This document shows positions 7,417-20,582 of a DNA stretch of 34,895 bases, in pieces. This DNA comes from Planctomyces sp. (lineage in GTDB: Bacteria; Planctomycetota; Planctomycetia; Planctomycetales; Planctomycetaceae). The translations under genes and the position numbers were made by a program. The stretch's first letter is position 1. Each line of letters begins with the position of its first letter. The notes under the pieces were generated by a model, which saw only the letters and a program-made list of their open reading frames with translations, ran no database searches and was not told where the DNA came from. The stretch lies in NCBI GenBank assembly GCA_005798445.1, contig SYJG01000342.1, positions 1 to 34,895 of the forward strand, in the 5' to 3' direction.

Positions 7417-8901
7417 ATGCCCAAATCCTGCGTTTTGGCACTCGATCAAGGGACGACATCGAGCCGAGCGATCGTGTTTGATCGGTCGGGGCGTGCGGTT
7501 GGTTCGGCTCAGCGGGAGTTTCCGCAGTTGTTCCCGTCGCCGGGACATGTCGAGCATGACCCGGAGGCGATTTGGGACAGCCAGCTCGCGACGGCAAAGC
7601 TAGCGTTGACGAACGCGAAGCTATCCGCGTCCGACATCGCGGCGATCGGCGTCACGAATCAACGCGAGACGACGATCCTCTGGGAGCGTGACTCCGGCAA
7701 GCCGGTCGCGAATGCGATCGTGTGGCAGAGTCGGATCACCGTGCCAATCTGCGAGCGTCTGAAGGCAGACGGAGTCGAGTCGCTGTTTCGGCAAAAGACC
7801 GGATTAGTCATCGATGCGTATTTCTCAGGGACGAAGATCCGGCATCTGCTGGACACGATTCCGGGACTGCGCGCACGGGCCGAGCGTGGTGAGATTTTGT
7901 TCGGTACGGTCGATTCGTTCTTAATCTGGCGGCTGACGGGCGGAAAGCAGCACGTCTCGGACGTCAGCAACGCGAGTCGCACGCTACTGTTCAATCTCCA
8001 CACGCTCGATTGGGACGACGAGTTGCTCAAGCTGATGGACGTGCCGCGCGCGATGCTGCCGCAGGTCGTCTCGTCCAGCGAGATCGTCGGTGAGTCCAAT
8101 GCGAAGTGGCTCGGCGGTGCGATCCCGATTGCCGGAGATGCCGGCGATCAGCAGGCGGCGACTTTCGGTCAGGCTTGCTTCGATCCGGGGAGCGCAAAGA
8201 ACACCTACGGTACCGGTTGTTTTTTGCTGATGAACACGGGAGAGAAGCCAGCCGAATCCAAGCACGGCCTGCTGACGACGGTCGGCTGGCGGATCAACGG
8301 GCGGACGACCTATTGCCTGGAAGGCTCGGTGTTCGTCGCCGGTGCGGCGGTGCAGTGGTTGCGGGACGGCCTGGGCCTGATCCGGCACGCGAGCGAAACA
8401 GCGGAGTTGGCGACCTCGGTCGCAGACAATGGCGGCGTCTATTTCGTGCCGGCTTTCGTCGGGCTGGGTGCTCCGTATTGGGATGCGAACGCTCGCGGAG
8501 TCATCACCGGGCTGACACGCGGGACGACGAAGGCTCATCTGGCCCGGGCGGCGTTGGAGGCGATGGCCTATCAGACTTCCGATGTGCTGGACGCGATGCG
8601 GCAAGATTCCGGCGTCGCGTTGCAATCGCTGCGAGTCGATGGCGGAGCGACCGCAAACGATTGGCTGATGCAGTTTCAAGCGGACGTGTTGGGGGTCGCC
8701 GTGCGGCGTCCGGCCGTGCAGGAGACGACCGCTCTGGGTGCCGCGTACCTCGCCGGTTTGGCGACGGGAGTTTGGTCCGACTTGAGTGACGTCTCGAAGA
8801 ATTGGCAGTTGCAGCGTGAATTTGCGCCGGTCATGTCGGGCTCTGAGCGTGAGCGATTGCTCCAACAGTGGCATCGTACGGTCGCGCGAGCGGGTGGCTG
8901 A
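7417..8901 (+). CDS. glpK: Glycerol kinase
   Basis: The product (494 aa, the usual length) phosphorylates glycerol to sn-glycerol 3-phosphate with ATP in the cytoplasm. It begins with the FGGY-kinase phosphate loop ([14 protein letters not shown]), continues with GVTNQRETT and WQSRIT for glycerol binding, [13 protein letters not shown] with the catalytic Asp, the [14 protein letters not shown] loop, and the C-terminal adenosine-binding [16 protein letters not shown]. The ATG at 7417 follows a purine-rich AAGAGGG; the frame is open farther upstream but the family N-terminus ([15 protein letters not shown]) fixes the start. No glpF or glpD is adjacent, so it appears to be a single-gene unit. 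Palindromic repeats sit on both sides, the downstream one starting 2 bp after the stop. Confidence 0.96.
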
Positions 8902-8902
8902 G

Positions 8903-8968
8903 TGCCAGCACGACGCGGCAGCGAGTGGTTGTTCGCAAAAAACCACTCGCTGGCGCGTCGTGCTGGCA
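8903..8968. repeat. Palindromic REP-like element, copy 2
   Basis: Arms of 28 bp (8903-8930 and 8941-8968) pair with a single mismatch around a 10-nt loop. The core is the same as at 6976-7031. It starts just after the glpK stop codon, so the transcript would end in a very stable hairpin that could act in mRNA protection or termination, although no T-run follows. Confidence 0.88.
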
Positions 8969-9369
8969 GAGTAAGGCGATTCGCCGTTGACGTCGGCTCA
9001 CGGGTGAGTCTGAGGGTTGTAATGTCCGCGTCAATTATGCGGATTGACAGTCCTGATGCGATCAAGGAATCGCTCGACGGAGATGCTGTCTTCGGATTCA
9101 TCGCGCCGTTCGACAAGGCTGATAGAGACGTCATGTTCGGCAGGTTTTCGCCGACTGGTCGGACTCTCGCAGGTTCGGGGAATGGCATCTTTGGCTTGCG
9201 GTGCGCATTGAGAACCCGGAATTCGTTGGACGATCTGCAAGGTGGAATTCTGACGGCTCGGCGCGACCGCCCGGCGCAGACTTTCGCCCCAAACCAAACA
9301 CATCGAGTCATGAGGCTGGCTGGCGAGACCGTCGCGAGCCGCTTTGATGGATCATCGGGAGATCAAGCG
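8969..9369. other. Intergenic leader upstream of the RTX gene
   Basis: About 400 bp without a recognisable gene. The RTX frame stays open through it, but the planctomycete N-terminal leader fixes the start at 9370. A TTGACA occurs near 9046 without a convincing -10 partner. I see nothing else. Confidence 0.5.
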
Positions 9370-11820
9370 ATGCGCCTGTTTTCGTGGTTGTCGTCGATTC
9401 AGAAATCATGGAATCGTGTTCATGCTCGCCGCCCTCGCCGAGTTTTGGCCGGATTGGAACGCTTGGAGTCTCGAACCTTGCTCACAACGGGAGCAAGAGT
9501 CGATTCGGCGAACTTGGAGTTGGACGTCGATCCCGGCGACACGTTGACCGTGACCGCGGCCGCCGATCTCATCATTCTCAACATCAACGGAGTCGATCAG
9601 CCTGCGTTGAACACGCTCGCGTCGGAAGTCGAAACGATTGCGGTCACTCTGCTTGGTGGATCAACGATTGATCTGAGCAACGTGACCGGCGATGGGTTCA
9701 CCCTTCTGTTGGCAGGCGCAGCGGACAGCCCGCAGCCGCTGGTCACCGTCACCGGAAGCGACGGCGACGATTCGATTATCGGAAGCACAATCAGCGATTC
9801 GATCATCGGCGGCGACGGCATTGACACGATCGTCTCCGGCGGCGGCAACGATTACGTCAAGGCGGGAGCCGGTGCCGACTTCGTCAGTGGCGGAGACGGA
9901 TTTGACACGATCCTTGGTGGCGACGACGCGGATGAACTGGATGGCGGCGACGACTCGGACACGATCAACGGAAACGACGGAGGTGACATCATCACCGGTG
10001 GAGACGGCGATGACCGTCTCGAAGGGGACGCGGGCAAGGACGACCTCGACGGCGAAGGAGGAAACGACGACATTCGAGGTGGAAACGACAACGATACTCT
10101 CCTCGGCGGTGACGGCACCGACAAATTGCAAGGCGGAAGCCAAGACGACTCTCTCGAAGGTGGCGACGGAGTCGACACCGTTTTAGGCGACGCAGGCAAT
10201 GACCTCCTGGTGTGGACCACCGGTGACTCGACCGAGACTTTGGATGGCGGCACTGGCAGCGATGAGTTGGAAGTCCGCGGGACAGTCGGGAACGATTCCT
10301 TCGCGGTCGGACAAAGCTCGGCGGGCAAGTACAAAGTGACCGGGACGGGCGTCGCCAACACCCGTTTGATCGAAGACATCATCGTCAAGGGGTTGGAAGG
10401 GGACGACGCGATCACCTTCACCAACATCAGCGCGGCGGCCGCAGGCTCGGCTCTCACGGTTTTCGGAGGCGTCGGCAACGACCGGATTCTTGCCAACAAC
10501 GCGGTGTTCACAAACTTCGTGGTTGCACTGAATGGCGACGAAGATGCGGACAGCATCTCTGGCTCGCGGAATCCAGACTTGATCGACGGCGGAACTGGCA
10601 GCGACACGATCAATGGCAACGGCGGTGGCGATGAAATCTTTGGTGGCGACGGCGGCGACAGCATTCTCGGCGGCGATGGTAATGACACAATCACTGGCAA
10701 TGAGGGCAATGATACGATCGATTCGCAACTCGGCGAAGACCTGATTTACGGTGATAACGACGACGGTACCGGGGCTGGCAACGACGTTCTCAACGGTGAC
10801 GGCGGAAACGACACCATCTACGGTGGTGAAGACGACGACAAAATCTCAGCCGGTGCGGGTAATGACCTCGTCTTCGGCGATAACGAGGACGGAACCGGGA
10901 CCGGCAACGACAGCCTCAATGGCAATATCGGCCGTGACACCATGAAGGGTGGCGATGGTGACGACCGGCTGCGTGGCGATGGCGACAACGACATCCTGTC
11001 GGGCGAAGCCGGCAACGATTTGGTGGAAGGTGACGACGGCCAAGACACGCTCTTTGGTGACGACTCGGACGACGTGACTGCTGGCAATGACACGGTCAAC
11101 GGTGGTGCCGGTAATGACTCGATCGTCGGTGGCCAAGGGGCTGACCAAGTCAATGGAAATTCTGGCAATGACAAAGTCTTCGGCTACATCGATGGTGGTG
11201 CGGACTCCGACGACAGCAACGTGATCCTCGGTGGCGACGGTAACGACACGCTCACCGGACAGAATGGCGATGACACAATGAATGGCCAAGCCGGCAACGA
11301 TCGCGCCAATGGCGAAGGAGGTGCCGATTCCATTTTGGGCGGTGCAGGCAATGACACACTCAGCGGCGGCGAAGGGGGCGATACGATCGACGGCCAAAAC
11401 GAAAATGACCGCATCTACGGTGACAACATCGACGGGTCTGGTTTCGGCGACGATCTTCTTTACGGCCGCGACGGCAACGACACTCTGCAAGGCGGCAGCG
11501 GAAACGACACAATGGACGGCGGTTCCGGAAACGATGGCCTCTCCGGCCAAGAAGATAATGATTCCATGCTCGGCGGCACGGGTAATGACACCCTCTTAGG
11601 CGGCGCGGGAAACGACACGCTGCGAGGCGGTGATGGCAACGATATCGTCATCGGAGACAGTTATGTTTCCGGTGCTGATTTCGGCGGCGACTATGTCATC
11701 GGTGACGCGGACAAGGATACGGTCGCCGGCAACGGCGGGGTCAACGTCGTCATCAATCCGTCCGACGTGGATTACAACGCGGACGAGAAGCCATTCAGCA
11801 TCAAGCCGTCATGGGAATAG
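9370..11820 (+). CDS. RTX (hemolysin-type calcium-binding repeat) secreted protein
   Basis: The 816-aa product starts with the planctomycete leader (MRLFSWLSSIQKSW, Arg-rich stretch, LERLESRTLLT at about residues 30-39). The ATG at 9370 has GGGAGA about 10 bp upstream. After a beta-rich segment of about 90 residues come dozens of RTX nonapeptides (GGDGNDTLxGG) from about residue 130 to 790, broken once at residues 280-400 by a repeat-free domain (TTGDSTETLDGG to ISGSRNPDLIDGG). RTX repeats fold as calcium-filled beta-rolls outside the cell. No catalytic domain is visible, so a structural or matrix role is likelier than toxin activity. It shares leader and repeat type with the broken giant gene on the other side of glpK. 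It ends shortly before a strong terminator and the left end of the integrative element. Confidence 0.9.
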   Translation: MRLFSWLSSIQKSWNRVHARRPRRVLAGLERLESRTLLTTGARVDSANLELDVDPGDTLTVTAAADLIILNINGVDQPALNTLASEVETIAVTLLGGSTIDLSNVTGDGFTLLLAGAADSPQPLVTVTGSDGDDSIIGSTISDSIIGGDGIDTIVSGGGNDYVKAGAGADFVSGGDGFDTILGGDDADELDGGDDSDTINGNDGGDIITGGDGDDRLEGDAGKDDLDGEGGNDDIRGGNDNDTLLGGDGTDKLQGGSQDDSLEGGDGVDTVLGDAGNDLLVWTTGDSTETLDGGTGSDELEVRGTVGNDSFAVGQSSAGKYKVTGTGVANTRLIEDIIVKGLEGDDAITFTNISAAAAGSALTVFGGVGNDRILANNAVFTNFVVALNGDEDADSISGSRNPDLIDGGTGSDTINGNGGGDEIFGGDGGDSILGGDGNDTITGNEGNDTIDSQLGEDLIYGDNDDGTGAGNDVLNGDGGNDTIYGGEDDDKISAGAGNDLVFGDNEDGTGTGNDSLNGNIGRDTMKGGDGDDRLRGDGDNDILSGEAGNDLVEGDDGQDTLFGDDSDDVTAGNDTVNGGAGNDSIVGGQGADQVNGNSGNDKVFGYIDGGADSDDSNVILGGDGNDTLTGQNGDDTMNGQAGNDRANGEGGADSILGGAGNDTLSGGEGGDTIDGQNENDRIYGDNIDGSGFGDDLLYGRDGNDTLQGGSGNDTMDGGSGNDGLSGQEDNDSMLGGTGNDTLLGGAGNDTLRGGDGNDIVIGDSYVSGADFGGDYVIGDADKDTVAGNGGVNVVINPSDVDYNADEKPFSIKPSWE

Positions 11821-11941: not shown

Positions 11942-11989
11942 AAAGGGGCCGGTGGGAGTTGAACCCACGCGTGACGGATTTGCAATCCG
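11942..11989 (-). repeat. attL: displaced 3' fragment of tRNA-Cys
   Basis: 48 bp identical to 18920-18967. On minus it reads the anticodon loop, variable region, T-arm and acceptor 3' strand of tRNA-Cys; the 5' half is absent, so it cannot make a tRNA. The identity ends sharply at 11990. Confidence 0.92.
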
Positions 11990-12263
11990 CCGCTCGAATG
12001 ATGTAACCGCTGGCGGAGATGAGAACTGTGATGACGGTCGCCGAATGGTTGTACCAATGGTTGTACCCGCTCACGATGAAACGACGTGCGACACGGTGAG
12101 ACAATCGACGTTGGACGTGGCATCGGAGACGAGTTCGGGACAGCGGCCGAGCGGTGTGAACGATCCCGTGTTGGCGGACGTCGTGGCTCGGTGGGACTCG
12201 TTGCCAGAGCATGTTCGGCAAGCGATCGTCACGTTGGTCAAGGTGGCCGGCTCGGACAAGTGA
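11943..12263 (+). pseudogene. Displaced C-terminal segment of the element's integrase
   Basis: In the same phase as the integrase at the right-hand repeat, this frame reads the antisense tRNA peptide (GPVGVEPTRDGFAI), then about 90 more codons to TGA 12261-12263. It includes VVPMVVP (the arm repeat) and ends in a helical tail, DPVLADVV...WDSLPEHVRQAI, with mostly G/C third positions like real coding sequence. From memory, tails of this kind close planctomycete integrases. When left and right ends are joined in the excised circle, the integrase would continue directly into this segment and be 598 aa long. In the integrated state it has no start of its own, although host sequence upstream is open in frame from about 11811. 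Confidence 0.7.
12046..12072 (+). repeat. Putative integrase arm-type site, left copy
   Basis: A 27-bp sequence identical to 18757-18783. It contains GGTTGTACC twice, separated by 3 bp (12-bp period). It lies 56 bp inside the left core repeat. Direct paired repeats on both sides of a core are the pattern of arm sites bound by the N-terminal domain of tyrosine integrases. Confidence 0.65.
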
Positions 12264-12723
12264 GCGACGCTCCGAAGCGGCTCGGTTGAGGTGGTTCGGT
12301 GGTCGAATGCGATCGCTCCGCGCGTCGCGGTGAAGATGGTCACGAGCCGCGAAGATGGCCACTTCGTTGCGTGGGGATGTCCGCGAACGACGTGGCCAAG
12401 TTCGACCAGCCGGCACGACGGGACGGGCGGCGGATCGGTCGAACGTGAGGCCGGAGGTTCTTTGGCCGGGGGATGCCACGCGGTCGGAACGACTCTAATC
12501 CCACGAATTTTGTCCCGAAACGATTTATTTTTCAGGGTAAGTAAGTAAGTAAGTCGATTGAACAAATTGGTTGATGAAAGTTCACGTCTCTGCCTGTCGC
12601 CATTTGGCGGAAGGACATTGAAGCTGGATTCGCGATAAGCTGATTGTCGAGCTTGGTGGCGTTTCGGCTTGGCACCGTTGCCACAGTTGCCGAGTGAAGT
12701 CAACTGTTTAAGTGGTGACGATC
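12264..12723. other. Non-coding left part of the element, possible control or origin region
   Basis: 460 bp without a supportable gene. It holds two direct copies of GAAGATGGYCAC (12332-12343, 12351-12362), an A/T-richer stretch near 12500-12535 and a (GTAA)4 microsatellite at about 12538-12553. Repeats of this sort beside an element with its own helicase could mark a replication origin or a regulator-binding site; that is inference. Confidence 0.4.
12332..12362 (+). repeat. Pair of GAAGATGGYCAC iteron-like repeats
   Basis: Copies at 12332-12343 and 12351-12362 are 19 bp apart. The same 12-mer recurs in inverse orientation as a pair at 17265-17276 and 17285-17296, with a one-mismatch copy at 17224-17235, next to the helicase stop codon. 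Confidence 0.6.
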
Positions 12724-13239
12724 ATGCGCGAAATGGAAAGCAGAGTGCTCCGATTGGAACGAGCGAATCGTTGGTTGTGGTTGGCCCTCGCCGTGGCGAT
12801 CGCGGCCCCGCTGGTGACAGAGTTCATCGGCCGCCCCGCGGTGGGCGTTGAGCCGAAGAAGAAGACACTTGAAGAGCGCGTCGAGGTCTTGGAGGCGTAC
12901 AACAAGAAGGCATTGGAGCTGTCGGTTCAAACGATGATTGAGGTCATGGCGCGATCAGAAATTGAGTGTCGCGGGATCGCGGTGGTGGATGACAAGCGGA
13001 ACCCGCGAATCCTGCTGTCTGGCGGCGAGAAGGGCGGAAGCTCAAGCGTCAGTATGGTTGATCGGAATGGTAGGTCGCGGCTTGAGCTCATCGTTTCGCC
13101 TGAAGGATCAGCGATCATTCGGAACCTAGACGCGGCGGGGAAGTTGAGATTGGCACATGGCAGCTTGCCCGATGGGACTCCGACAATTGTGTTCGAGGAC
13201 TCAAAGGGCAAGGCGGTCAATTTGCTGGACAAGAAATGA
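12724..13239 (+). CDS. Membrane-anchored protein of unknown function
   Basis: I do not recognise a named family. The 171-aa product has a short charged N-terminus (MREMESRVLRLERANR), one transmembrane helix (about residues 16-36, WLWLALAVAIAAPLVTEF), a coiled-coil-like stretch (KKTLEERVEVLEAYNKKALE) and then beta-hairpin repeats of the form D-x-x-G-x-x-R-L-x-L (SMVDRNGRSRLELIV, NLDAAGKLRLAHG, FEDSKGKAVNLL). Such short repeats occur in envelope proteins of planctomycetes. Type II topology with the C-terminus outside is likely. A GTG at 12712 could add four residues; neither start has a strong ribosome-binding site. It is the first cargo gene of the element and stands apart from the replication genes. 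Confidence 0.65.
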   Translation: MREMESRVLRLERANRWLWLALAVAIAAPLVTEFIGRPAVGVEPKKKTLEERVEVLEAYNKKALELSVQTMIEVMARSEIECRGIAVVDDKRNPRILLSGGEKGGSSSVSMVDRNGRSRLELIVSPEGSAIIRNLDAAGKLRLAHGSLPDGTPTIVFEDSKGKAVNLLDKK

Positions 13240-13365
13240 AAATGACCGGCTGTTCGCAGTCGCGCAGACGATGCCCGATGCGTTCCGCTTGCCTGAATGA
13301 GTTGCGGCCGGCAAGATCTTTCGCAGGGTTGTCGGGCGGTGAGTAGCTACGTCGTTCGACCGAAG

Positions 13366-13421
13366 CGAACCGGGCGATGCGGAAGCGTTCTCTACCCTTG
13401 CACGCATCCCCGCCCGGTTCG
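13366..13421. promoter_or_regulatory. Hairpin upstream of the 360-aa cargo gene
   Basis: Arms 13366-13381 (CGAACCGGGCGATGCG) and 13403-13421 are complementary apart from a small bulge, around a 21-nt loop. The hairpin ends 23 bp before ATG 13445 and could be an operator, attenuator or terminator of the previous gene; no T-run follows. Confidence 0.4.
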
Positions 13422-13444
13422 GCCCGTTCGCAAGGGATCGGACG

Positions 13445-14527
13445 ATGGCGAGGGACTACAGCGTCGGTAGTGTGCCGAGCGGGATTGTACGACCGGGATA
13501 CGAATACGTCGTTTCGTCGAGTGTCCGGTGCAAAGGGAGTTTCGGTGGCAAGGGCTACGCAACGCCGGTTCTCACGACGCCAGAATGCTCGGAAGTGACG
13601 ACGCTTCACGTCGAAGTTGTTGCGTTGCTCACGTCAATTTGTGAGTTTGAGCACTACGTTGCAGAGCACAGCCAGAAAGCAGCGACCAAGCCAAAGTACG
13701 GACCTTGGTATCGCATCCCAATTTGCTTGTCGCGATTGCACTACCACACGAACCCCGCGCTCTTCGATGCACTGGTGACAACAACTCCAGACGCTCCAAT
13801 CGCGCCAGTCGAGTATCAGGGGAAGCGGTGGGAAAGTTACCACCGGATGGCTTGCGAGTTGTCTCAAAGACGATTCGACGAACTGGAGCGTCGGCTGGTG
13901 AAGTTGGCCCCGAAGTGTGACGTACCATTCTGGCTGAAACGCTTGTCTGAACGGGAAGCGTTGGTTGAACAGTTCGTCGATGCCGTCGTCCAACACTTCT
14001 CAGATATCGCAGCGACGTGGAACGTGCCGCCATTGGACTACGACGAGTTAAACGGACTTCTCGAATTGGAATACCGAAACTGGATGCGACGACAACAGCC
14101 CGTTGCAGAGAAAACGACTGCGGGATTCAAGCTCCACATTCCATCCAAGCTCCCCGTACCAATGCCGCAGCCATTAACAGCCGAGGCAGCGAACCGTGAG
14201 ATTCCTGCACACGTTGTCGACGACGATTGGATTCATGCTGTGAATGACGATCCGCCACAACGTTTCCAGTACGGGCCGCTCACTGATTTTCAAACTGCGC
14301 TTGGCTATGCGATCCGATACGCCAACCTTGATCCCGTCACGACTGACCGTGCGCTCCGCGACTATCTCAAAGAAGTCGCAACGGCTAACGACTCCCGCGT
14401 TTGGTTGAAACGCACTGGAAGCAAGAAACTGGAGGCGTACTTTCACAAGGCCAAGACGTTTCACGTCGCGCAAGAACGTCTGAAATCGTTCCCACAATGG
14501 AAGTCAGCGGAAACGAACGGAAGTTGA
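13445..14527 (+). CDS. Element-encoded protein of unknown function (360 aa)
   Basis: No family is recognised. The protein is soluble, without a signal or transmembrane segment, with many aromatic and charged residues. Visible parts are an N-terminal region of about 45 residues, a helical middle (about 50-220: LHVEVVALLTSICEFEHYVAE, RWESYHRMACELSQRRFDELERRL) and a C-terminal helical domain (about 265-350, YGPLTDFQTALGYAIRYANLD to KAYFH-like EAYFHKAKTFHVAQ). The first 40 codons are less certain, and a later start is possible. It lies between the membrane protein and the small-gene cluster, with decamer repeats across its stop codon and a terminator after it, so it is probably its own transcription unit. 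Possible roles include defence, toxin or replication accessory; none can be shown. Confidence 0.6.
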   Translation: MARDYSVGSVPSGIVRPGYEYVVSSSVRCKGSFGGKGYATPVLTTPECSEVTTLHVEVVALLTSICEFEHYVAEHSQKAATKPKYGPWYRIPICLSRLHYHTNPALFDALVTTTPDAPIAPVEYQGKRWESYHRMACELSQRRFDELERRLVKLAPKCDVPFWLKRLSEREALVEQFVDAVVQHFSDIAATWNVPPLDYDELNGLLELEYRNWMRRQQPVAEKTTAGFKLHIPSKLPVPMPQPLTAEAANREIPAHVVDDDWIHAVNDDPPQRFQYGPLTDFQTALGYAIRYANLDPVTTDRALRDYLKEVATANDSRVWLKRTGSKKLEAYFHKAKTFHVAQERLKSFPQWKSAETNGS

Positions 14528-14544
14528 CGGAAGTAGACGGAAGC
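14515..14544 (+). repeat. Tandem decamer repeats (GACGGAAGT type)
   Basis: Three contiguous 10-bp units, GAACGGAAGT, TGACGGAAGT and AGACGGAAGC, overlap the stop codon of the 360-aa gene. A weaker unit (TCAGCGGAAA) precedes them at 14505. The spacing is close to one helical turn. Confidence 0.7.
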
Positions 14545-14610
14545 CACTTCGTCACGGCGGCGGTGATTTTGAGAGCGCACGACTCGCACACCACAACACC
14601 ACGACGGTAC

Positions 14611-14641
14611 AGGGACCGAGGTTTTCACTTCGGTCCCTTTT
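14611..14641 (+). terminator. Rho-independent terminator after the 360-aa gene
   Basis: The stem AGGGACCGA (14611-14619) pairs with TCGGTCCCT (14630-14638), with a 10-nt loop and TTTT following on plus. It separates the 360-aa gene from the small-gene cluster that begins 20 bp later. Confidence 0.65.
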
Positions 14642-14660
14642 CGTTTCGTGGAGGTGTGCT

Positions 14661-14861
14661 GTGTGTCTGTCCGAACTGTTGCGGGAACTCCGCCAATCGG
14701 GAGTCGATGCAAGCGAGTCGCGAATCCGTTGGGCCATCAAGACCGGAAAGGTGAGCCGTCCGAGAGTCGATAGCTCGTTCCGGTTCGACTTCCGCGCGGA
14801 GAACGTCGCCGAGTTGGTGGCCTACTTCGCAGATCGTGAGGTGTCGCATGTCGCGAAGTGA
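14661..14861 (+). CDS. Small putative helix-turn-helix protein
   Basis: The 66-aa product starts at GTG 14661 with GGAGG 6 bp upstream. The sequence LSELLRELRQSGVDASESRIRW followed by AIKTGKVSRPRVDSSFRFDF and ENVAELVAYF resembles the MerR-like winged-helix fold, in which a helix-turn-helix is followed by a wing carrying K-V-x-x-P. It could be a regulator or a recombination directionality factor. It overlaps the next gene by 14 bp, which points to translational coupling. Confidence 0.6.
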   Translation: MCLSELLRELRQSGVDASESRIRWAIKTGKVSRPRVDSSFRFDFRAENVAELVAYFADREVSHVAK

Positions 14862-15138
14862 CACCTCGACAGCGGACGATGCCGGCTTGGAGTTGCTGAC
14901 GATTGATGACCTGTCGCGGCTGTTGAAGCGGTCGCGGGCGAGTCTTCATCGGGACTTGGCGGCGGGACGGTTGCCGCGGCCGATCCGCTTCGGTGCGGGT
15001 TCGTCGGCGGTGAGATGGCGACGGCAGACCGTTTTGGCGTGGCTCGAAAGTCTCGCCGCGAATGAAGACGCCCGGCCGGTGGAACGGTCGGGCGTCGATG
15101 GCTCGAACCTCGCACAGCAACGGGAGGGAGAGCGATGA
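14848..15138 (+). CDS. AlpA/excisionase-like helix-turn-helix protein
   Basis: The 96-aa product contains LLTIDDLSRLLKRSRASLHRDLAAGRLPRPIRFG followed by VRWRRQTVLAWLESL. This is the layout of the HTH_17/AlpA family: recognition helix, wing with G-x-L-P-x-P-x-x-x-G, then W-x-x-x-x-V-x-x-W. AlpA-type proteins activate or direct excision of integrated elements, so this is the best candidate for the element's excisionase or control protein. ATG 14848 has GAGG upstream (about 14837-14840) and lies inside the end of the previous gene. Its stop overlaps the next start (ATGA at 15135-15138). Confidence 0.8.
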   Translation: MSRSDTSTADDAGLELLTIDDLSRLLKRSRASLHRDLAAGRLPRPIRFGAGSSAVRWRRQTVLAWLESLAANEDARPVERSGVDGSNLAQQREGER

Positions 15139-15578
15139 CGGACTCTAACTCTTCCGGTCGGTCGCGACCACAGCGGCGACGGTCGGAACCGCCAGGGCTG
15201 ATTGAAGGCCGGTTGCGACGTGATGCCGCTCACTGGCAGAACGCGAACGGTCGCGCGGCGAGTTTCTTTGAATTCGGTCGCGTCGCGATGTTGCGATTGT
15301 TGATCGAAAAGCCGTCCGCGACGGTCAACGACTTGCGTGAAGTCTATCCGCTCCGTGAAGGCATCAAGCCGGCGGTGTACGGGACGATTCTGCAATCGCT
15401 CGCCCGGTTGAAACTCATTCGGCCGGTGAGTCGTGAGCAGACGTCTCGCCCCATTGCGCACGCTCGAAAGATTGAACGGTGGGAACTGACAGACCTGCAA
15501 CGGGCAATCGAGTGGCTGCGCGGGCAGGGGCATGACGTGCCCCAGCCCGGCACGATTCAGCGGACGTTGTTTTCGTGA
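15135..15578 (+). CDS. Small element protein, possible winged-helix domain
   Basis: The 147-aa product starts at an ATGA overlap with the previous gene, so it is translationally coupled. After a basic, Pro-rich N-terminus (GRSRPQRRRSEPPG) it has LLIEKPSATVNDLREVYPLREGI followed by YGTILQSLARLKLIRPVSRE and KIERWELTDLQRAIEWLRGQ. This reads like a winged helix: helix, recognition helix, then a beta wing. No named family is recognised. Its place between an AlpA-like protein and the helicase suggests a replication-initiation accessory or a regulator. Confidence 0.6.
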   Translation: MTDSNSSGRSRPQRRRSEPPGLIEGRLRRDAAHWQNANGRAASFFEFGRVAMLRLLIEKPSATVNDLREVYPLREGIKPAVYGTILQSLARLKLIRPVSREQTSRPIAHARKIERWELTDLQRAIEWLRGQGHDVPQPGTIQRTLFS

Positions 15579-15669
15579 CGTGATGCAACCGGCTGACGTC
15601 ATGGCGGTTGTTTGTCTGCGGAGATGTTGCGTCCCCGTGTTTCGGGTGGCGTGTCGAAAGGCGGAGAGC

Positions 15670-17268
15670 ATGGCGGCGAAACGAAAACGCGAGGATCAAG
15701 GGGTGTCGCCGTACAACTCGGAAGCCGAGCAAGCGACGCTGGCCAGCGTATTACTCGACAACTCGGTTTGGGAGTCGGTTCGGCAACTCGTTCGCGCCGA
15801 CGATTTCTTTTGCTGTGGGCATCACGTCATCTTCGCGGCCATCGACCTGTTGCGAGTGAGCGGAAGCGTCGCCGATGCCGTGACCGTTCACGAGCAACTT
15901 GAGCGTGAGGGTCGGCTCGCCGAAGTGGGCGGCGTTGAATACCTCTCCAAGTTGTTGGAAGTCGTGCCGAACGCGGCGCACGCGGTCTATTACGCTCAGA
16001 TCGTCGCGAAGTATTCGATCAGGCGACGGGGCATCGTGGCGGCCGATGCGATCAAGCAACGATTGTTGGCCGGAGACGAGTTCGACGACAACGCGGCCGA
16101 CATCGACACGTTGGACGCTCTGCGGCGAGAGCAATCGGCGCGGACGGGGGCGGAGTTGGTGACGTTGCGGGCGTCGGACATCGAACCGTTGCCGCTCGAA
16201 TGGTTGTGGCCGGGACGGATACCGCTCGGCGCGTTGGTGATGTTCTCCGGCTATGGGGGCTTGGGGAAATCGCTTGTGACGCTCGACATCGCGGCGCGGG
16301 TGACGCGCGGCATGGAATGGCCGGACGGTTCGGCGAAGTCGCAGCCGGCTGGCTCGGTCATCATCGCCAACTGCGAAGATCCCTTGGACACGGTCGTCGT
16401 GCCTCGATTGGAACGGGCCGGCGCAGAACTCAGCCGGATTGTGTTCGTGGATGGCGTGAGCGATCCTGGTCATGGATCAACCGGGACAAAGAACGGCGCG
16501 GTGAAAAGCCGCAAACGATTCTTTACGCTCGACCGGGACGTACCGTTGTTGGAACGGACGTTGTCGCAGATCCCGGATTGCCGGCTCGTGATCGTCGATC
16601 CGATTTCGGCGTTCTGTGGTGGCATCGACACGCACAAGAATTCCGATGTCCGCAGTATGCTGGCTCCGCTGACCGAGCTGGCGTCGCGTCACGGGTTCGC
16701 CATTATCGGGGTGACTCACTTCAAGAAGGGGAACGGGGGAAGAGCGGCCGATCGGTCGATTGATTCTGTTGCGTTCGTGAACGCGGCGCGGGCCAATTGG
16801 GCGTTCCTGAAAGACACTGACGACCCAAGCCGGCGGTTGATGCTCCCCGCCAAGATGAACCTCGCCCCCGATTCGACCGGGCTGGCGTATCGGATCGAAT
16901 CACCGAGCGACGATGTTCCCCCCGTTATCGTTTGGGAATCCGCACCCGTTGCCATGCACGCCGACGACGCATTGGCTGCCGAGCTTCAGCCCACCAACAA
17001 CCGGCGCGGTGAACCGCGTCGGAAGGCGATGGAATTCTTGACCGATTTCCTGTGCGACGGTTCGCGGTCAGCGGATGAAGTTTTCGCGGCTGCGGATGAT
17101 GCCGGCATCGCCGAGAAGACGCTTAACCGAGCAGCCAAAGAACTCGGTATCGAAAAATCGAAAGCCGGCTTTGATGGCGGCTGGTTGTGGTCACTGGCAC
17201 CGAGCGACGTCAAAGCATCGGCGGAAGATGACCACATCTACAACGACTTGCCCAACAACGCGAAGTGA
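15670..17268 (+). CDS. DnaB N-domain / RepA-like AAA ATPase fusion (replicative helicase)
   Basis: The 532-aa protein joins two replication modules. Residues about 14-115 match the DnaB N-terminal domain (NSEAEQATLASVLLDNSVW, DAVTVHEQLEREGRLAEVGGVEYL), which binds primase. From about 180 comes a RepA/AAA_25-type P-loop ATPase: Walker A GYGGLGKS at 194-201, IIANCEDP, and Walker B RLVIVDPISAF with Asp310, then GVTHFKK. Family knowledge says RepA-like hexameric helicases serve plasmid and element replication. The C-terminal 90 residues look like a winged helix (RKAMEFLTDFL, SADEVFAAADDAGIAEKTLNRA). The start at ATG 15670 has GGAGAG upstream. The gene follows the small-gene cluster by 91 bp and probably belongs to the same operon. 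Confidence 0.85.
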   Translation: MAAKRKREDQGVSPYNSEAEQATLASVLLDNSVWESVRQLVRADDFFCCGHHVIFAAIDLLRVSGSVADAVTVHEQLEREGRLAEVGGVEYLSKLLEVVPNAAHAVYYAQIVAKYSIRRRGIVAADAIKQRLLAGDEFDDNAADIDTLDALRREQSARTGAELVTLRASDIEPLPLEWLWPGRIPLGALVMFSGYGGLGKSLVTLDIAARVTRGMEWPDGSAKSQPAGSVIIANCEDPLDTVVVPRLERAGAELSRIVFVDGVSDPGHGSTGTKNGAVKSRKRFFTLDRDVPLLERTLSQIPDCRLVIVDPISAFCGGIDTHKNSDVRSMLAPLTELASRHGFAIIGVTHFKKGNGGRAADRSIDSVAFVNAARANWAFLKDTDDPSRRLMLPAKMNLAPDSTGLAYRIESPSDDVPPVIVWESAPVAMHADDALAAELQPTNNRRGEPRRKAMEFLTDFLCDGSRSADEVFAAADDAGIAEKTLNRAAKELGIEKSKAGFDGGWLWSLAPSDVKASAEDDHIYNDLPNNAK

Positions 17269-17296
17269 CCATCTTCGGAGCGAAGTGGCCATCTTC
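17224..17296 (-). repeat. Iteron-like GAAGATGGYCAC copies at the helicase 3' end
   Basis: On minus, GAAGATGGYCAC occurs at 17265-17276 and 17285-17296. On plus, a one-mismatch copy (GAAGATGACCAC) lies at 17224-17235. They match the pair at 12332-12362. Confidence 0.55.
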
Positions 17297-17444
17297 GGCG
17301 AGTCGATGAACAAGTCACGGTGTTGAATGTGTCTGCCGGCATCACTGGCCGGCGGTTATCTTTCGTCACCTTTTGCCACGGGGCGGGCGGCGCGGTGTGA
17401 TGCCCGCGCCCCCGCTTCGTGGTGCATCACCAAAGGGGAACACG

Positions 17445-20400
17445 ATGGCATCGCTCTTTCGGCCGATCATCACTCGATTCGTGGACGCGAACGGCAACCG
17501 GGTTCGCAAGGGGACACCGGGAGCGATTCGCAAACGCGAACGCTCAGACACGTTTTGGGGCAAGTATCGAGTCGGCAAGGGGCGTCCCGTTGCTCGTGTC
17601 GCGTTGTGCGATGACCGCGAAACCGCCGAGTCGATGTTGGCGGACTTGGTGAAACGTGCTCGCCGTGAACTGTCCGGGGACGTCGATCCGTTTGAAGCAT
17701 CGCGCAAGAGGCCGCTCGCCGAACACTTGGCCGACTTCCGGGCCTTTCTGGAGTCCAAGGGGAACACGGCTGACCATGTCGCTCTGAGCGGCAACCGCAT
17801 TCAAGCGGCATTCGATGGCTGCGGATTCAAACGGCTGGCCGATTTGAATGCCGGGCGCGTCGCCGGTTGGCTGTCCGATCGACGAAAGCCAAAATGTGAC
17901 AAAGGGGGCAAGGTCGTTCCCGGTCTGAGCGTCGCCAGTAGCAATCATCACCTGACGGCAGTGAAGGCGTTCGGCGGCTGGCTCGTGAAGGATCGACGCT
18001 CACCGGAGAACCCATTCGCTCACTTGTCGCGATTGAACGCCCGCGTCGATGTCCGACACGAACGCCGCGCCCTGTCGATGGATGAACTGCGGCGACTGAT
18101 TGACGCGGCCAAAGCCGGCAAGGGGTTTCGAGACCTGTCGGGACGTTCGCGGGCGATGCTCTACCTCATGGCGACGTTCACGGGCTTGCGGGCGTCCGAA
18201 CTGGCCAGCTTGACCGAGCAGAGTTTCAACCTGTCTGCCGATCCGCCAAACGTCACGTTGGAGGCTGCCTACAGCAAACATCGCCGGGAAGATGTTGTAC
18301 CGCTTCATCCCGCGTTAGCGGCAGAAATCGCCGGTTGGTTCGACGAACTGCGTGGCAATCGAACCACTCTCCGATTGACCGACGCATCGGCCAAGCTGGC
18401 GGCACGATCCTCGACGGCCGATCGGTTGTGGCCGGGAACTTGGGTGACAGCGGCGGCGAGCATGATCCGACGTGACCTGGACGCGGCCGGCATTCCCTAT
18501 GTCACAGACGCAGGCTGCGCGGACTTTCACTCGCTCCGTCACACATTCATCAGCAACTTGGTCAAAAGCGGAGTTCATCCCAAAGTGGCGAAAGAACTCG
18601 CCCGGCATTCCACCATCACGTTGACGATGGACCGATACGCTCACGTCGGTTTGCTCGACATGAACTCGGCATTGGCATCACTTCCAGAGTTGCCATCCGC
18701 TCCCATCGAACAACGGGCCATCGCAACGGGTACGCTGGGAAACACCGACCACGTTTTGGTTGTACCAATGGTTGTACCCGCTCCATCGAAACTCGCCGTT
18801 TCTCACGGTGAATCATGTTCACTCAGGGGTGACTGGTACGAGTCGGCATCAAAAACCGAAAGCCCTCAATTCCTGCGAAGGAATGAGGGCTTTTGCGATT
18901 CGATGAAACTCATTGACTCAAAGGGGCCGGTGGGAGTTGAACCCACGCGTGACGGATTTGCAATCCGTTGCCTTAGCCACTTGGCTACGGCCCCAAAGCG
19001 GGCGGACTTTAGTTGTGGGTTTTCTGAGGGTCAAGGCGTGTTCCGAGACAACAACCGCGTTGCAAATTGCAAAATAAAAATTGCAAATTGCAAATTGACG
19101 AGCGGCGATGGAAAGTCTCCCTTCAAGCCGTTTGGTCAACTCTGGAAGACAACTCTTATGCCCCGCGACTTCAACACCGAAAGCCTCTCACACGATCCGA
19201 TTCACGGCTACATTCCATTCGTCTCGAAGGACGGGATGCCGGACGGCGAGGTCTCGGAACAGGAGCTGATCGATCATCCGTGGGTGCAGCGGATGCGGCA
19301 CATCCACCAACTGCAAACGGCTTGGTGGGTGTTTCCGTCGGCTGAACACATGCGGTTTCAGCACATCTTGGGAGCGATGCACCTGTCGTCGATCGCCATC
19401 GAACGTTGGTACGAATCGCTGGTCGCGTCCGGCTCGAACGTGCCGTCGCGAGCATACGTCGAGAGCCTCGTCCGGTTGGCCGCGCTGCTGCACGACATCG
19501 GACATGGACCGTTCGGACACTTCTTCGACGATCATTTCCTCGACCAGTTCGGACTGACTCACGAGGTCATTGGCTCGGCGATCATCCAACAGGAACTGGG
19601 CGATCTGATTCGCCGAGTGCGACGCAATCCGAACGGCAAGCTCGGCCCGCTGGAGGAACTGGACCCCAGCCAGGTCGCGTGGCTGATCCGCCGGCCGACG
19701 GGCAAGCCTCAAGACGAACACGGCCATCCCGCGTGGCTCAAGAAGCTGCGGTCGCTCTTCAGCGGCATCTACACCGTGGACAACATGGATTTCGTGCTTC
19801 GCGACGCGTACATGTCGGGCTACAACACAAAGGCGTTCGATCTGTCGCGGATGCTGCACTACAGCTTTTTCTCGGCGGAAGGGCTGACGATTCATGCTCG
19901 TGGGCTACCGACGCTCATCAATTTCATCGAAACGCGAGCCAACTTGTTTCGGACGATCTATTTTCATCGGACGGTGCGAGCCATCGACCTCGCGCTGGAA
20001 GAGCTCTTCGGCCCGACGATGCTGCGGCTGTTTGGCGGCTCGGATGGTCAGCCGATGAATCCGCTGGAACACCTCGACGAATACCGCCGGTTGACCGAAT
20101 CGACGTTCCTGGTCGATGTGCAGCGCTGGTCGCGGAGTTCCGACCAGGATTTGAAATCGCTGGGCGAGCAGTGGGACGCCCTGCTCTCTCGCCAGGTGAC
20201 TTGGAAGATGGCCTGCGAGCGGACCTTCAACTTCCACGCCGGCCAAGCCGAGCGGACGTCGATTTTTTCGGAGCCGGATTTGGTCGAGAAACGCATCCGA
20301 GCCACGCTTCCGGAGAACTTGAGAGAGATTGAACTGCGGATCGACGTGGCTCGGCATTATCACCGTCCCAGCGGCAGACTCCCCGCAGGCGGACAGAATT

Positions 20401-20582
20401 TTCTGCTCGATCCGGCGGGTGGTACGCCGCGCGAACTGCACGACGATGAACTCTTTCAGTCATTGCCGACGAGCTTCTCGATCTTTCGCGTTTACTCGAA
20501 GGATCATCGCCACGACGCGGCGTTGTACGCGGCCGTGAACTCGGTCTTGGGCGCGGTCGCGGATTCGAAGACGAACATGTAA
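17445..20582 (+). CDS. Tyrosine integrase; reading frame runs through attR and antisense tRNA-Cys into the HD gene
   Basis: The integrase proper covers about residues 1-430. It has an N-terminal arm-binding-like region, a SAM-like core-binding domain (LAEHLADFRAFLESKGNT to AFGGWLVKD) and a full catalytic domain with Arg249 (GLRASE), the Lys of SKHRREDVVPLH, His362-x-x-Arg365 (HSLRHT), His388 (ARHST) and nucleophile Tyr398 (DRYAHV). It inserts and excises the element at tRNA-Cys. ATG 17445 follows AAAGGGG. There is no stop at the end of the integrase: the frame passes a VVPMVVP arm repeat, a terminator hairpin, the att core (from codon 493) and the antisense of tRNA-Cys, and joins the HD-protein frame, ending at 20582. 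The downstream part is separately encoded from 19158. In the excised circle the frame would end at 12263 instead (598 aa). Whether the 1045-aa fusion is made is unknown. Confidence 0.85.
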   Translation: MASLFRPIITRFVDANGNRVRKGTPGAIRKRERSDTFWGKYRVGKGRPVARVALCDDRETAESMLADLVKRARRELSGDVDPFEASRKRPLAEHLADFRAFLESKGNTADHVALSGNRIQAAFDGCGFKRLADLNAGRVAGWLSDRRKPKCDKGGKVVPGLSVASSNHHLTAVKAFGGWLVKDRRSPENPFAHLSRLNARVDVRHERRALSMDELRRLIDAAKAGKGFRDLSGRSRAMLYLMATFTGLRASELASLTEQSFNLSADPPNVTLEAAYSKHRREDVVPLHPALAAEIAGWFDELRGNRTTLRLTDASAKLAARSSTADRLWPGTWVTAAASMIRRDLDAAGIPYVTDAGCADFHSLRHTFISNLVKSGVHPKVAKELARHSTITLTMDRYAHVGLLDMNSALASLPELPSAPIEQRAIATGTLGNTDHVLVVPMVVPAPSKLAVSHGESCSLRGDWYESASKTESPQFLRRNEGFCDSMKLIDSKGPVGVEPTRDGFAIRCLSHLATAPKRADFSCGFSEGQGVFRDNNRVANCKIKIANCKLTSGDGKSPFKPFGQLWKTTLMPRDFNTESLSHDPIHGYIPFVSKDGMPDGEVSEQELIDHPWVQRMRHIHQLQTAWWVFPSAEHMRFQHILGAMHLSSIAIERWYESLVASGSNVPSRAYVESLVRLAALLHDIGHGPFGHFFDDHFLDQFGLTHEVIGSAIIQQELGDLIRRVRRNPNGKLGPLEELDPSQVAWLIRRPTGKPQDEHGHPAWLKKLRSLFSGIYTVDNMDFVLRDAYMSGYNTKAFDLSRMLHYSFFSAEGLTIHARGLPTLINFIETRANLFRTIYFHRTVRAIDLALEELFGPTMLRLFGGSDGQPMNPLEHLDEYRRLTESTFLVDVQRWSRSSDQDLKSLGEQWDALLSRQVTWKMACERTFNFHAGQAERTSIFSEPDLVEKRIRATLPENLREIELRIDVARHYHRPSGRLPAGGQNFLLDPAGGTPRELHDDELFQSLPTSFSIFRVYSKDHRHDAALYAAVNSVLGAVADSKTNM
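18757..18783 (+). repeat. Putative integrase arm-type site, right copy
   Basis: The 27 bp are identical to 12046-12072, with doubled GGTTGTACC. They lie 136 bp from the right core repeat, within the integrase frame, and encode VVPMVVPA in the same phase as the left copy. Confidence 0.65.
18851..18894 (-). terminator. Terminator for tRNA-Cys carried by the element
   Basis: The stem AAAGCCCTCA+TTCCT (18859-18874, one bulged A) pairs with AGGAA+TGAGGGCTTT (18879-18893) around a GCGA loop; TTTTT follows on minus and TTTT on plus. It lies just beyond the 3' end of tRNA-Cys and inside the integrase frame. The element thus supplies a terminator in place of the host one displaced to 11847-11879. Confidence 0.85.
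18920..18967 (-). repeat. attR: 48-bp core repeat within tRNA-Cys
   Basis: Identical to 11942-11989. It covers the tRNA 3' side from the anticodon loop to three bases beyond the acceptor stem, and it regenerates a functional tRNA after insertion. Confidence 0.92.
18922..18994 (-). tRNA. tRNA-Cys (GCA)
   Basis: The minus strand folds into a full cloverleaf: acceptor GGGGCCG/CGGCCCC, D-arm GCCAAGTGGCTAAGGC, anticodon stem ACGGA/TCCGT with loop TTGCAAA (anticodon GCA), and T-arm GTGGGTTCAACTCCCAC. The base after the acceptor stem is T (U73), the discriminator used by cysteinyl-tRNA synthetase. CCA is not encoded. The gene is the integration target of the element. Confidence 0.96.
19006..19034 (-). 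promoter_or_regulatory. Probable sigma70-type promoter of tRNA-Cys
   Basis: On minus, TTGACC (19029-19034) and TAAAGT (19006-19011) are separated by exactly 17 bp. The tRNA begins 11 bp after the -10 box. Confidence 0.55.
19060..19101 (+). repeat. Heptamer repeats TTGCAAA upstream of the HD gene
   Basis: Six contiguous heptamers: TTGCAAA twice, ATAAAAA, TTGCAAA twice, TTGACGA. They form an A/T-rich patch between the tRNA promoter and the HD-protein start. Similar low-complexity repeats are scattered between genes in planctomycetes (from memory). Confidence 0.75.
19158..20582 (+). CDS. HD-domain phosphohydrolase, SAMHD1/dNTPase-like
   Basis: The 474-aa protein has the metal-binding HD signature of dNTP triphosphohydrolases: PIHGYI near the N-terminus, His69 (FQHILGAMH), His112-Asp113 (LLHDIGHGPFGH) and a later Asp in VDNMDFVLRDAYMSG. 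Relatives hydrolyse dNTPs or nucleotide monophosphates in the cytoplasm. The start at ATG 19158 (MPRDFNTESLSHDPIHGY) fits the family, and upstream codons in the same frame are antisense tRNA and repeats. It is host sequence just outside the element. Because the frame is continuous with the integrase, pipelines may annotate one fused protein. Confidence 0.85.
   Translation: MPRDFNTESLSHDPIHGYIPFVSKDGMPDGEVSEQELIDHPWVQRMRHIHQLQTAWWVFPSAEHMRFQHILGAMHLSSIAIERWYESLVASGSNVPSRAYVESLVRLAALLHDIGHGPFGHFFDDHFLDQFGLTHEVIGSAIIQQELGDLIRRVRRNPNGKLGPLEELDPSQVAWLIRRPTGKPQDEHGHPAWLKKLRSLFSGIYTVDNMDFVLRDAYMSGYNTKAFDLSRMLHYSFFSAEGLTIHARGLPTLINFIETRANLFRTIYFHRTVRAIDLALEELFGPTMLRLFGGSDGQPMNPLEHLDEYRRLTESTFLVDVQRWSRSSDQDLKSLGEQWDALLSRQVTWKMACERTFNFHAGQAERTSIFSEPDLVEKRIRATLPENLREIELRIDVARHYHRPSGRLPAGGQNFLLDPAGGTPRELHDDELFQSLPTSFSIFRVYSKDHRHDAALYAAVNSVLGAVADSKTNM

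Follow-up and report, generated by a model that had tools for sequence, protein, structure and literature searches.

Planctomycete tyrosine integrase genes with the attachment site between the catalytic domain and a conserved C-terminal tail

Where does an integrase gene end if the attachment site of its own element lies within its reading frame, and what becomes of the protein on integration? The question is raised by the window analysed here, the whole stretch of 34,895 nucleotides of Planctomyces sp. DNA (GenBank assembly GCA_005798445.1, contig SYJG01000342.1), which contains an element spanning about 7 kb, from 11942 to 18967. Its ends are an exact 48-bp repeat on the plus strand that corresponds to the 3' half of a tRNA-Cys. 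The right core (attR, 18920..18967) is antisense to the tRNA and lies within the integrase frame, and the left core (attL, 11942..11989), a tRNA 3' fragment that has been displaced, has the phase of the tail described below. The complete tRNA-Cys gene, the target site, was located by ARAGORN at 18922..18994 on the minus strand. On the plus strand the element also encodes a DnaB-like replicative helicase/primase (15532..17268; Pfam AAA_25 and DnaB, phrog_19) and an excisionase-like HTH protein (14836..15138), a candidate directionality factor that matches phrog_66 with an E-value of 3.3e-9 and Pfam HTH_17 with an E-value of 7.4e-6 and 26.6 bits, just below the 27-bit cut-off. A large host protein with RTX repeats (8902-11820, HemolysinCabind repeats) adjoins the left element end.

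The integrase frame up to the end of the core (17445..18967, plus strand) encodes arm-binding, core-binding and catalytic domains followed by a linker. Tyrosine recombinases share the catalytic motif R..K..HxxR..H..Y. In an alignment of 11 sequences (A2) the K278, H362, R365, H388 and Y398 columns are invariant and R249 is nearly so, and we take these to be the catalytic residues. The conserved columns and the match of the catalytic domain to Pfam Phage_integrase (PF00589, E 4.9e-15) place the protein among the tyrosine recombinases of the phage integrase type. The sequence-only reading of this DNA had proposed that the att core is part of the integrase frame, that joining the element ends gives one integrase of 598 codons, and that integration exchanges the tail for antisense-tRNA and host sequence. 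All of this was borne out. From the ATG at 17445 the frame is stop-free up to and through the right core, the left core read in the integrase phase opens into a frame that continues to 12263, and joining 17445-18967 to 11990-12263 in silico keeps the frame and yields 598 aa plus a stop, ending in ...DPVLADVVARWDSLPEHVRQAIVTLVKVAGSDK. The tail encoded at 11990..12263 (plus strand), with its motif DPVLADVVARWDSLPEHVRQAIVTLVKVA at about 12162-12248, is supported by the joined frame, by conserved homologous tails and by a codon-position bias. In the integrated state the frame crosses the antisense tRNA instead, enters the host HD-domain gene (19158..20582, plus strand), with whose ATG at 19158 it is in frame by position, and stops at 20582 after 1045 aa. 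Over 17445-20582 the integrated integrase frame in this way forms an in-frame fusion with the gene of an HD-domain phosphohydrolase of the host, and the same integrase/tRNA-Cys/HD-like readthrough, of 1093 codons, was seen at another locus (L149) whose integrase is 52% identical.

The arrangement had been treated as a single case, and this part did not stand, since it is widespread across the phylum. A profile of the last approximately 30 tail residues, built from four tails, found matches in 59 of the 294 phylum genomes, the open frames concerned being 32-385 aa long, and 72 unique tails were taken for examination. Most of the 72 are preceded, in frame, by a peptide, recognised by eye, such as translation of a tRNA 3' half, antisense or sense, would presumably give. 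A profile search within the stretch fetched around each of the 72 found an integrase downstream on the same strand for 20, only upstream for 5, on the opposite strand for none, and none at all for 47. A core repeat pair was accepted for 22 of the 72 tails, and 18 of the 22 have an integrase beside the right core, counting those of L097 and L116, which were missed by the profile and recognised by eye. For 17 of these 18, integrase and tail agree in phase and the frame is open throughout, L093 included, whose integrase is truncated at its start; the one out of phase (L018) has a truncated integrase. None of the 34 stretches read in the other two phases of these 17 elements was open, a stretch being the 150 codons before the core, the core itself and the sequence on to the tail. 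The core phase relative to the T-loop fell 9, 5 and 1 times into the three phases (2 elements unscored), so that all three are used, and the targets comprise many tRNAs in both orientations. On these comparisons the shared integrase-tail frame is more than chance, because the tail motif recurs across the phylum, 17 of 18 elements are in phase and no wrong-phase stretch is open. The arrangement also spans distant integrase lineages, since the divergent integrases of L097 and L116 share the same tail and in-frame core.

An independent sample was drawn from the integrase side: a scan of genome contigs gave 402 matches, of which the best 80 were used. Among these 80, 78 titles give a planctomycete taxon, as which we count Kuenenia and Brocadiaceae, and two give only 'bacterium'. 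The integrase frame enters or crosses a complete tRNA gene in 58 of the best 80 (53 antisense, 5 sense), has no detected tRNA in 21 and ends with its contig in one. As background, 0 of 413 other frames of at least 250 codons on the same strand overlap a tRNA in their last 200 codons. All ten elements with a tail upstream and a repeat were in phase; one of them, L201, is the tail-first element L105 and is counted once. Three further in-phase elements are L251, L238, which is counted despite a 26-bp repeat that shows no tRNA, and L206 with L240/L241. In all, the integrase frame runs through the core into the tail in phase in 29 of 30 distinct elements in which tail, repeat and integrase could be paired. 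Left out of the 30 were L101, L102, L110 and L114, which have a repeat pair and no integrase at the right core; L221 and other new tails without a repeat; the 47 of the 72 tails without a profile-found integrase, except L097 and L116, restored by eye; and repeats shorter than 18 bp, as well as those that had no tRNA link and fell short of 40 bp (e.g., L091).

The junction check called for in the sequence-only reading, done here in silico, thus came out in favour of a kept frame in the window and in 29 of 30 elements and against it at six adjacent junctions elsewhere. In L110, L113, L096 and L047 the integrase precedes the tail across one core, out of phase; in L016 the adjacent integrase and tail are out of phase and the integrase frame is decayed; and in L211 the adjacent out-of-phase tail is weak and shifted (E 3e-3). 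We tentatively read these six as tandem or decayed elements. Tandem insertion by different elements would yield out-of-phase junctions, and of the six only L110 offers support for this, in another core that lies downstream together with a complete tRNA. Nor is the architecture universal among relatives, because 21 of the best 80 of 402 integrase frames have no detected tRNA and eleven of these end 18-43 aa past the tyrosine, which was called by a script with errors in some rows. Of the same 21, L154, L157 and L174 still show a tRNA-like peptide, L170 has a paired in-phase tail and L204 is unsplit.

Several loci are of interest in their own right. In Limnoglobus roseus PX52 (NZ_CP042425.1) two tails (L240 and L241) lie about 130 kb apart and have one 49-bp tRNA-Arg core in common with the integrase L206, an arrangement that suggests two tandem islands, both very large (about 130 and 122 kb). 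L101, L102, L110 and L114 are tRNA-flanked segments, 2-7 kb long, in which one end has a tail but the other lacks an integrase, and which we read as remnants or islands moved in trans. A tblastn search of the window's own genome with the integrase gave 32 matches, and in several of these the open frame is long. Among the distinct integrase ends there, about 20 in number, about 14 as judged by eye finish in tRNA-derived peptides, and ARAGORN called a tRNA at several of the ends.

That homologous integrases might never contain the tail, an outcome that would speak against the joined gene, is ruled out by L133 and L204, the only two unsplit integrase-core-tail genes with this tail type that were found. 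In L133, on a 49-kb phage contig, a single frame of 533 aa runs from the integrase through a tRNA-like antisense segment to the tail (E 1e-6) and lies between a helicase/primase gene and a terminase; the L133 core matched the fetched tRNAs only weakly, over 18 nt of a tRNA-Gln. The unsplit frame of L204, on a MAG contig, is 645 aa long and its core matches a tRNA-Arg (91% over 46 nt). A type I restriction HsdR gene, possibly defence cargo, lies near this integrase at 7604-10690. A third candidate, L246 (G334), with a tail in a frame of 668 aa, was rejected because its upstream part is not an integrase. The canonical tail was present in L133 only among 28 viral loci. Viral scans with the window integrase and with L105 gave no matches, the scan with L089 gave one locus matched over just 16 residues at the antisense-tRNA end, and L133 retrieved only itself. 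Plasmids searched with the window frame and L133, and phages searched with L133, gave no match at 60% identity or 80% coverage. The 9.5-kb contig of L138 is probably circular because it has an 87-bp terminal repeat. Inside the L138 integrase lies a core resembling tRNA-Gly (93% over 46 nt), after which comes a tail of another type. L127 and L137 look similar, and their tails also differ from the canonical one. A tRNA-derived segment in the integrase frame followed by a different C-terminal tail was observed in the viral or circular contigs L127, L137, L138, L140 and L141. The tRNA-like segment is sense in L128, L140 and L141, and these could be integrated copies.

The tail motif is about 30 aa long, with conserved L, W, LP and R/K positions and variable last residues, and the window tail matches no Pfam family. 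In 24 tail pairs of 70-99% identity, which share members, the differences at codon positions 1, 2 and 3 number 138, 85 and 247, as expected for protein-coding sequence under constraint. For the one close pair compared by dN/dS (L073 and L081) the values were about 0.10 for the catalytic part, 0.66 for the linker and 0.49 for the tail (32 codons), which suggests a modest constraint on the tail next to the catalytic part. The unsplit L133 protein was modelled with AlphaFold (14 sequences, mean pLDDT 70.5). The model consists of a small beta-sheet N-terminal domain, a helical domain, the catalytic domain, a linker and two helices, and the best fold matches in the PDB are the Brujita, lambda and Tn1549 integrases. 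The linker, 388-497, which contains the core, has a pLDDT below 50, as have residues 354-367 around the nucleophile. The tail helices are 499-507 and 514-525, and the pLDDT is 76-77 for residues 501-520, falling to 49 beyond 520. As modelled, the tail resembles a helical hairpin set apart from the other domains and attached by a flexible tether, and it is in the tether that the DNA site is tolerated.

The stretches on either side of the core also carry repeats. A direct repeat of at least 12 nt is shared by the stretch before the core and the stretch from core to tail in 16 of 27 same-element pairs vs. 3 of 702 cross pairs. At a threshold of at least 10 nt, the figures are 23 of 27 vs. 46 of 702 mismatched pairs, with medians in the 23 elements of 130 bp before the core and 56 bp after it. 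Perfect tandems of at least 9 nt at 12-bp spacing occur in 19 of 54 arms, where shuffles lead to an expectation of 0.08, and all other spacings from 8 to 21 bp total 7 tandems. In the 16 elements with a repeat of at least 12 nt the spacing from P to P' modulo 3 is 0, 1 and 2 in 7, 2 and 7 cases. Since the distances are not all multiples of 3, the repeats look like DNA sites, and their interpretation as protein repeats was rejected. We predict from this pattern that the 12-bp-spaced repeats are arm-type integrase binding sites. In the window the predicted P-arm pair (18757..18783, plus strand), which is GGTTGTACC twice at 12-bp spacing, and the predicted P'-arm pair (12046..12072, plus strand) are exact 27-bp repeats of each other that follow the family pattern, with GGTTGTACCAATGGTTGTACC on either side of the core. 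The complete attP is probably coding sequence, because the pairs of 12-bp-spaced repeats to the left and right of the core fall within the gene. Repeats of this kind supply predicted arm sites for about twenty integrases that differ in specificity.

On the tail side the circle form would add 51-98 aa past the core in the 17 tail-first elements, and in the integrated form the host adds 1-47 aa in 16 of the 17 and 537 aa in the window. It follows from the sequence that the catalytic protein persists after integration with an arbitrary end. Excision would still be expected, as the excisionase-like gene of the window element suggests, and the protein encoded by this gene could set direction by itself. 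The explanation we lean towards, with some reserve, is that attP in the 3' part of the integrase gene lets integration strip off an integration-promoting tail and leave a tail-less enzyme capable of excision. According to this model, attP would sit in the 3' part of the element's own tyrosine-integrase gene, between the catalytic domain and the conserved helical tail, and the gene sequences show that integrase, core and tail are one gene in the joined, circle form. Recombination at the tRNA places the tail beside attL and the catalytic gene beside attR, where the integrase gains a usually short host-derived end. The paired 12-bp-spaced repeats on both sides of the core would serve as integrase arm sites in an attP that is predicted to be coding throughout. 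The tail would be used by the circle-encoded enzyme only, and would most likely aid integration, for example by protomer contacts across the flexible linker. Integration would then remove the integration-promoting part and leave a catalytically complete, tail-less enzyme, which would excise only with the element's excisionase or with a full-length enzyme from another copy. The sequence-only reading had suggested that two state-specific C-termini could bias insertion against excision. We put forward tentatively the stronger claim that direction is set by the recombinase's own product, deletion of the helical tail turning the integration-proficient enzyme of the circle into an excision-type or locked one.

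The other readings turn on what the tail does and on whether it belongs to the gene. If it were needed for any recombination, the integrated integrase would be dead and excision would need a complete integrase in trans. There is an archaeal parallel, the truncated halves of such integrases being inactive in vitro according to a review (PMC8371274), and several of the 32 integrase matches in the window's genome, with their long open frames, could act in trans. The catalytic domain, however, is in one piece and open, unlike in the archaeal cases, and the element's excisionase-like gene would be idle, and we hold this reading to be unlikely. We think it improbable that the tail is an inhibitory or destabilising tag that keeps the circle-encoded integrase low and leaves the integrated one stable. 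The model for this is the repressor of phage BPs, which loses 33 C-terminal residues on integration to give a short form that is stable and active, and the BPs integrase also has a C-terminal proteolysis signal (PMC4557955); the planctomycete tail, by contrast, is a motif of about 30 aa modelled as two helices and not a short terminal degradation tag, and its last residues vary.

The tail frame is short and stands alone in integrated elements, as would a separate small gene at attL, for instance for a directionality factor, that shares the integrase frame incidentally. We regard this as very improbable and rejected an independent tail gene, as no conserved methionine was found between core and tail in 16 aligned tails, the phase is that of the integrase in 29 of 30 elements and two unsplit single genes exist. 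Hardly credible, finally, is an accident of island boundaries, in which open antisense-tRNA frames meet the leftover integrase 3' end of an older neighbouring element. Tandem elements do seem present at some tRNAs (L240/L241 and L110), there are adjacent integrase-tail junctions that are out of phase, and the core can often be read without a stop in more than one phase, but 0 of 34 wrong-phase stretches were open, the tail is under coding constraint, the polarity is fixed, with no opposite-strand integrase at any of 72 tail loci within the stretch fetched, and none of the 413 background frames overlaps a tRNA. A chance boundary was rejected on the grounds of phase, polarity and background.

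In their fold, and in the predicted arm sites to either side of the core, the planctomycete integrases are like those of the lambda/Tn1549 type. In the textbook cases of that type attP lies outside the integrase coding sequence. The planctomycete element differs in that the core and both predicted arm pairs lie inside it. Closest among known systems are the 'suicidal' integrases of archaea, of the SSV type (SSV1, pTN3, pT26-2), described in a 2021 review of archaeal tyrosine recombinases as having the site inside the integrase gene, which integration splits (PMC8371274). The same arrangement, attP inside the integrase frame and a split on integration, was found here. According to that review the archaeal split parts the N-terminal portion from the portion with the catalytic domain (PMC8371274), whereas in the planctomycete case the catalytic domain is whole, only the C-terminal tail is lost, and the catalytic domain stays joined to the N-terminal domains in the window and in the other integrated copies with a full-length frame. 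The Phage_integr_3 domain (PF16795), reported there for archaeal suicidal integrases (PMC8371274), was absent in a Pfam search from the window frame, L133, L204 and L138, all of which gave PF00589. The review also has self-disrupting integrases as exclusively archaeal (PMC8371274). The planctomycete self-splitting integrases are bacterial and their folds match Brujita, lambda and Tn1549, whereas the SSV type is archaeal. No report of a bacterial self-splitting integrase was found in the open-licence PubMed Central literature, which was the scope of the search. In the integration-dependent immunity of mycobacteriophage BPs and its relatives, attP lies in a phage gene and integration shortens the C-terminus, giving two state-specific forms (PMC4557955). 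That gene is the repressor and in the planctomycete element it is the integrase, for which attP in the frame and two C-terminal forms according to state were likewise found.

The planctomycete genes make up a bacterial, phylum-wide family of self-splitting integrases with a cut point that differs from the archaeal one. Because of the in-gene att core, many integrase genes in planctomycete genomes end in antisense-tRNA peptides, and since the tail marks the far end of the island it offers a simple way to find island ends. The family lets one ask whether a mobile element controls direction through the change in its enzyme's C-terminus at each insertion. If this is true, the recombination reaction would alter the gene for the enzyme that catalyses it and would in a single step record the state of the DNA.
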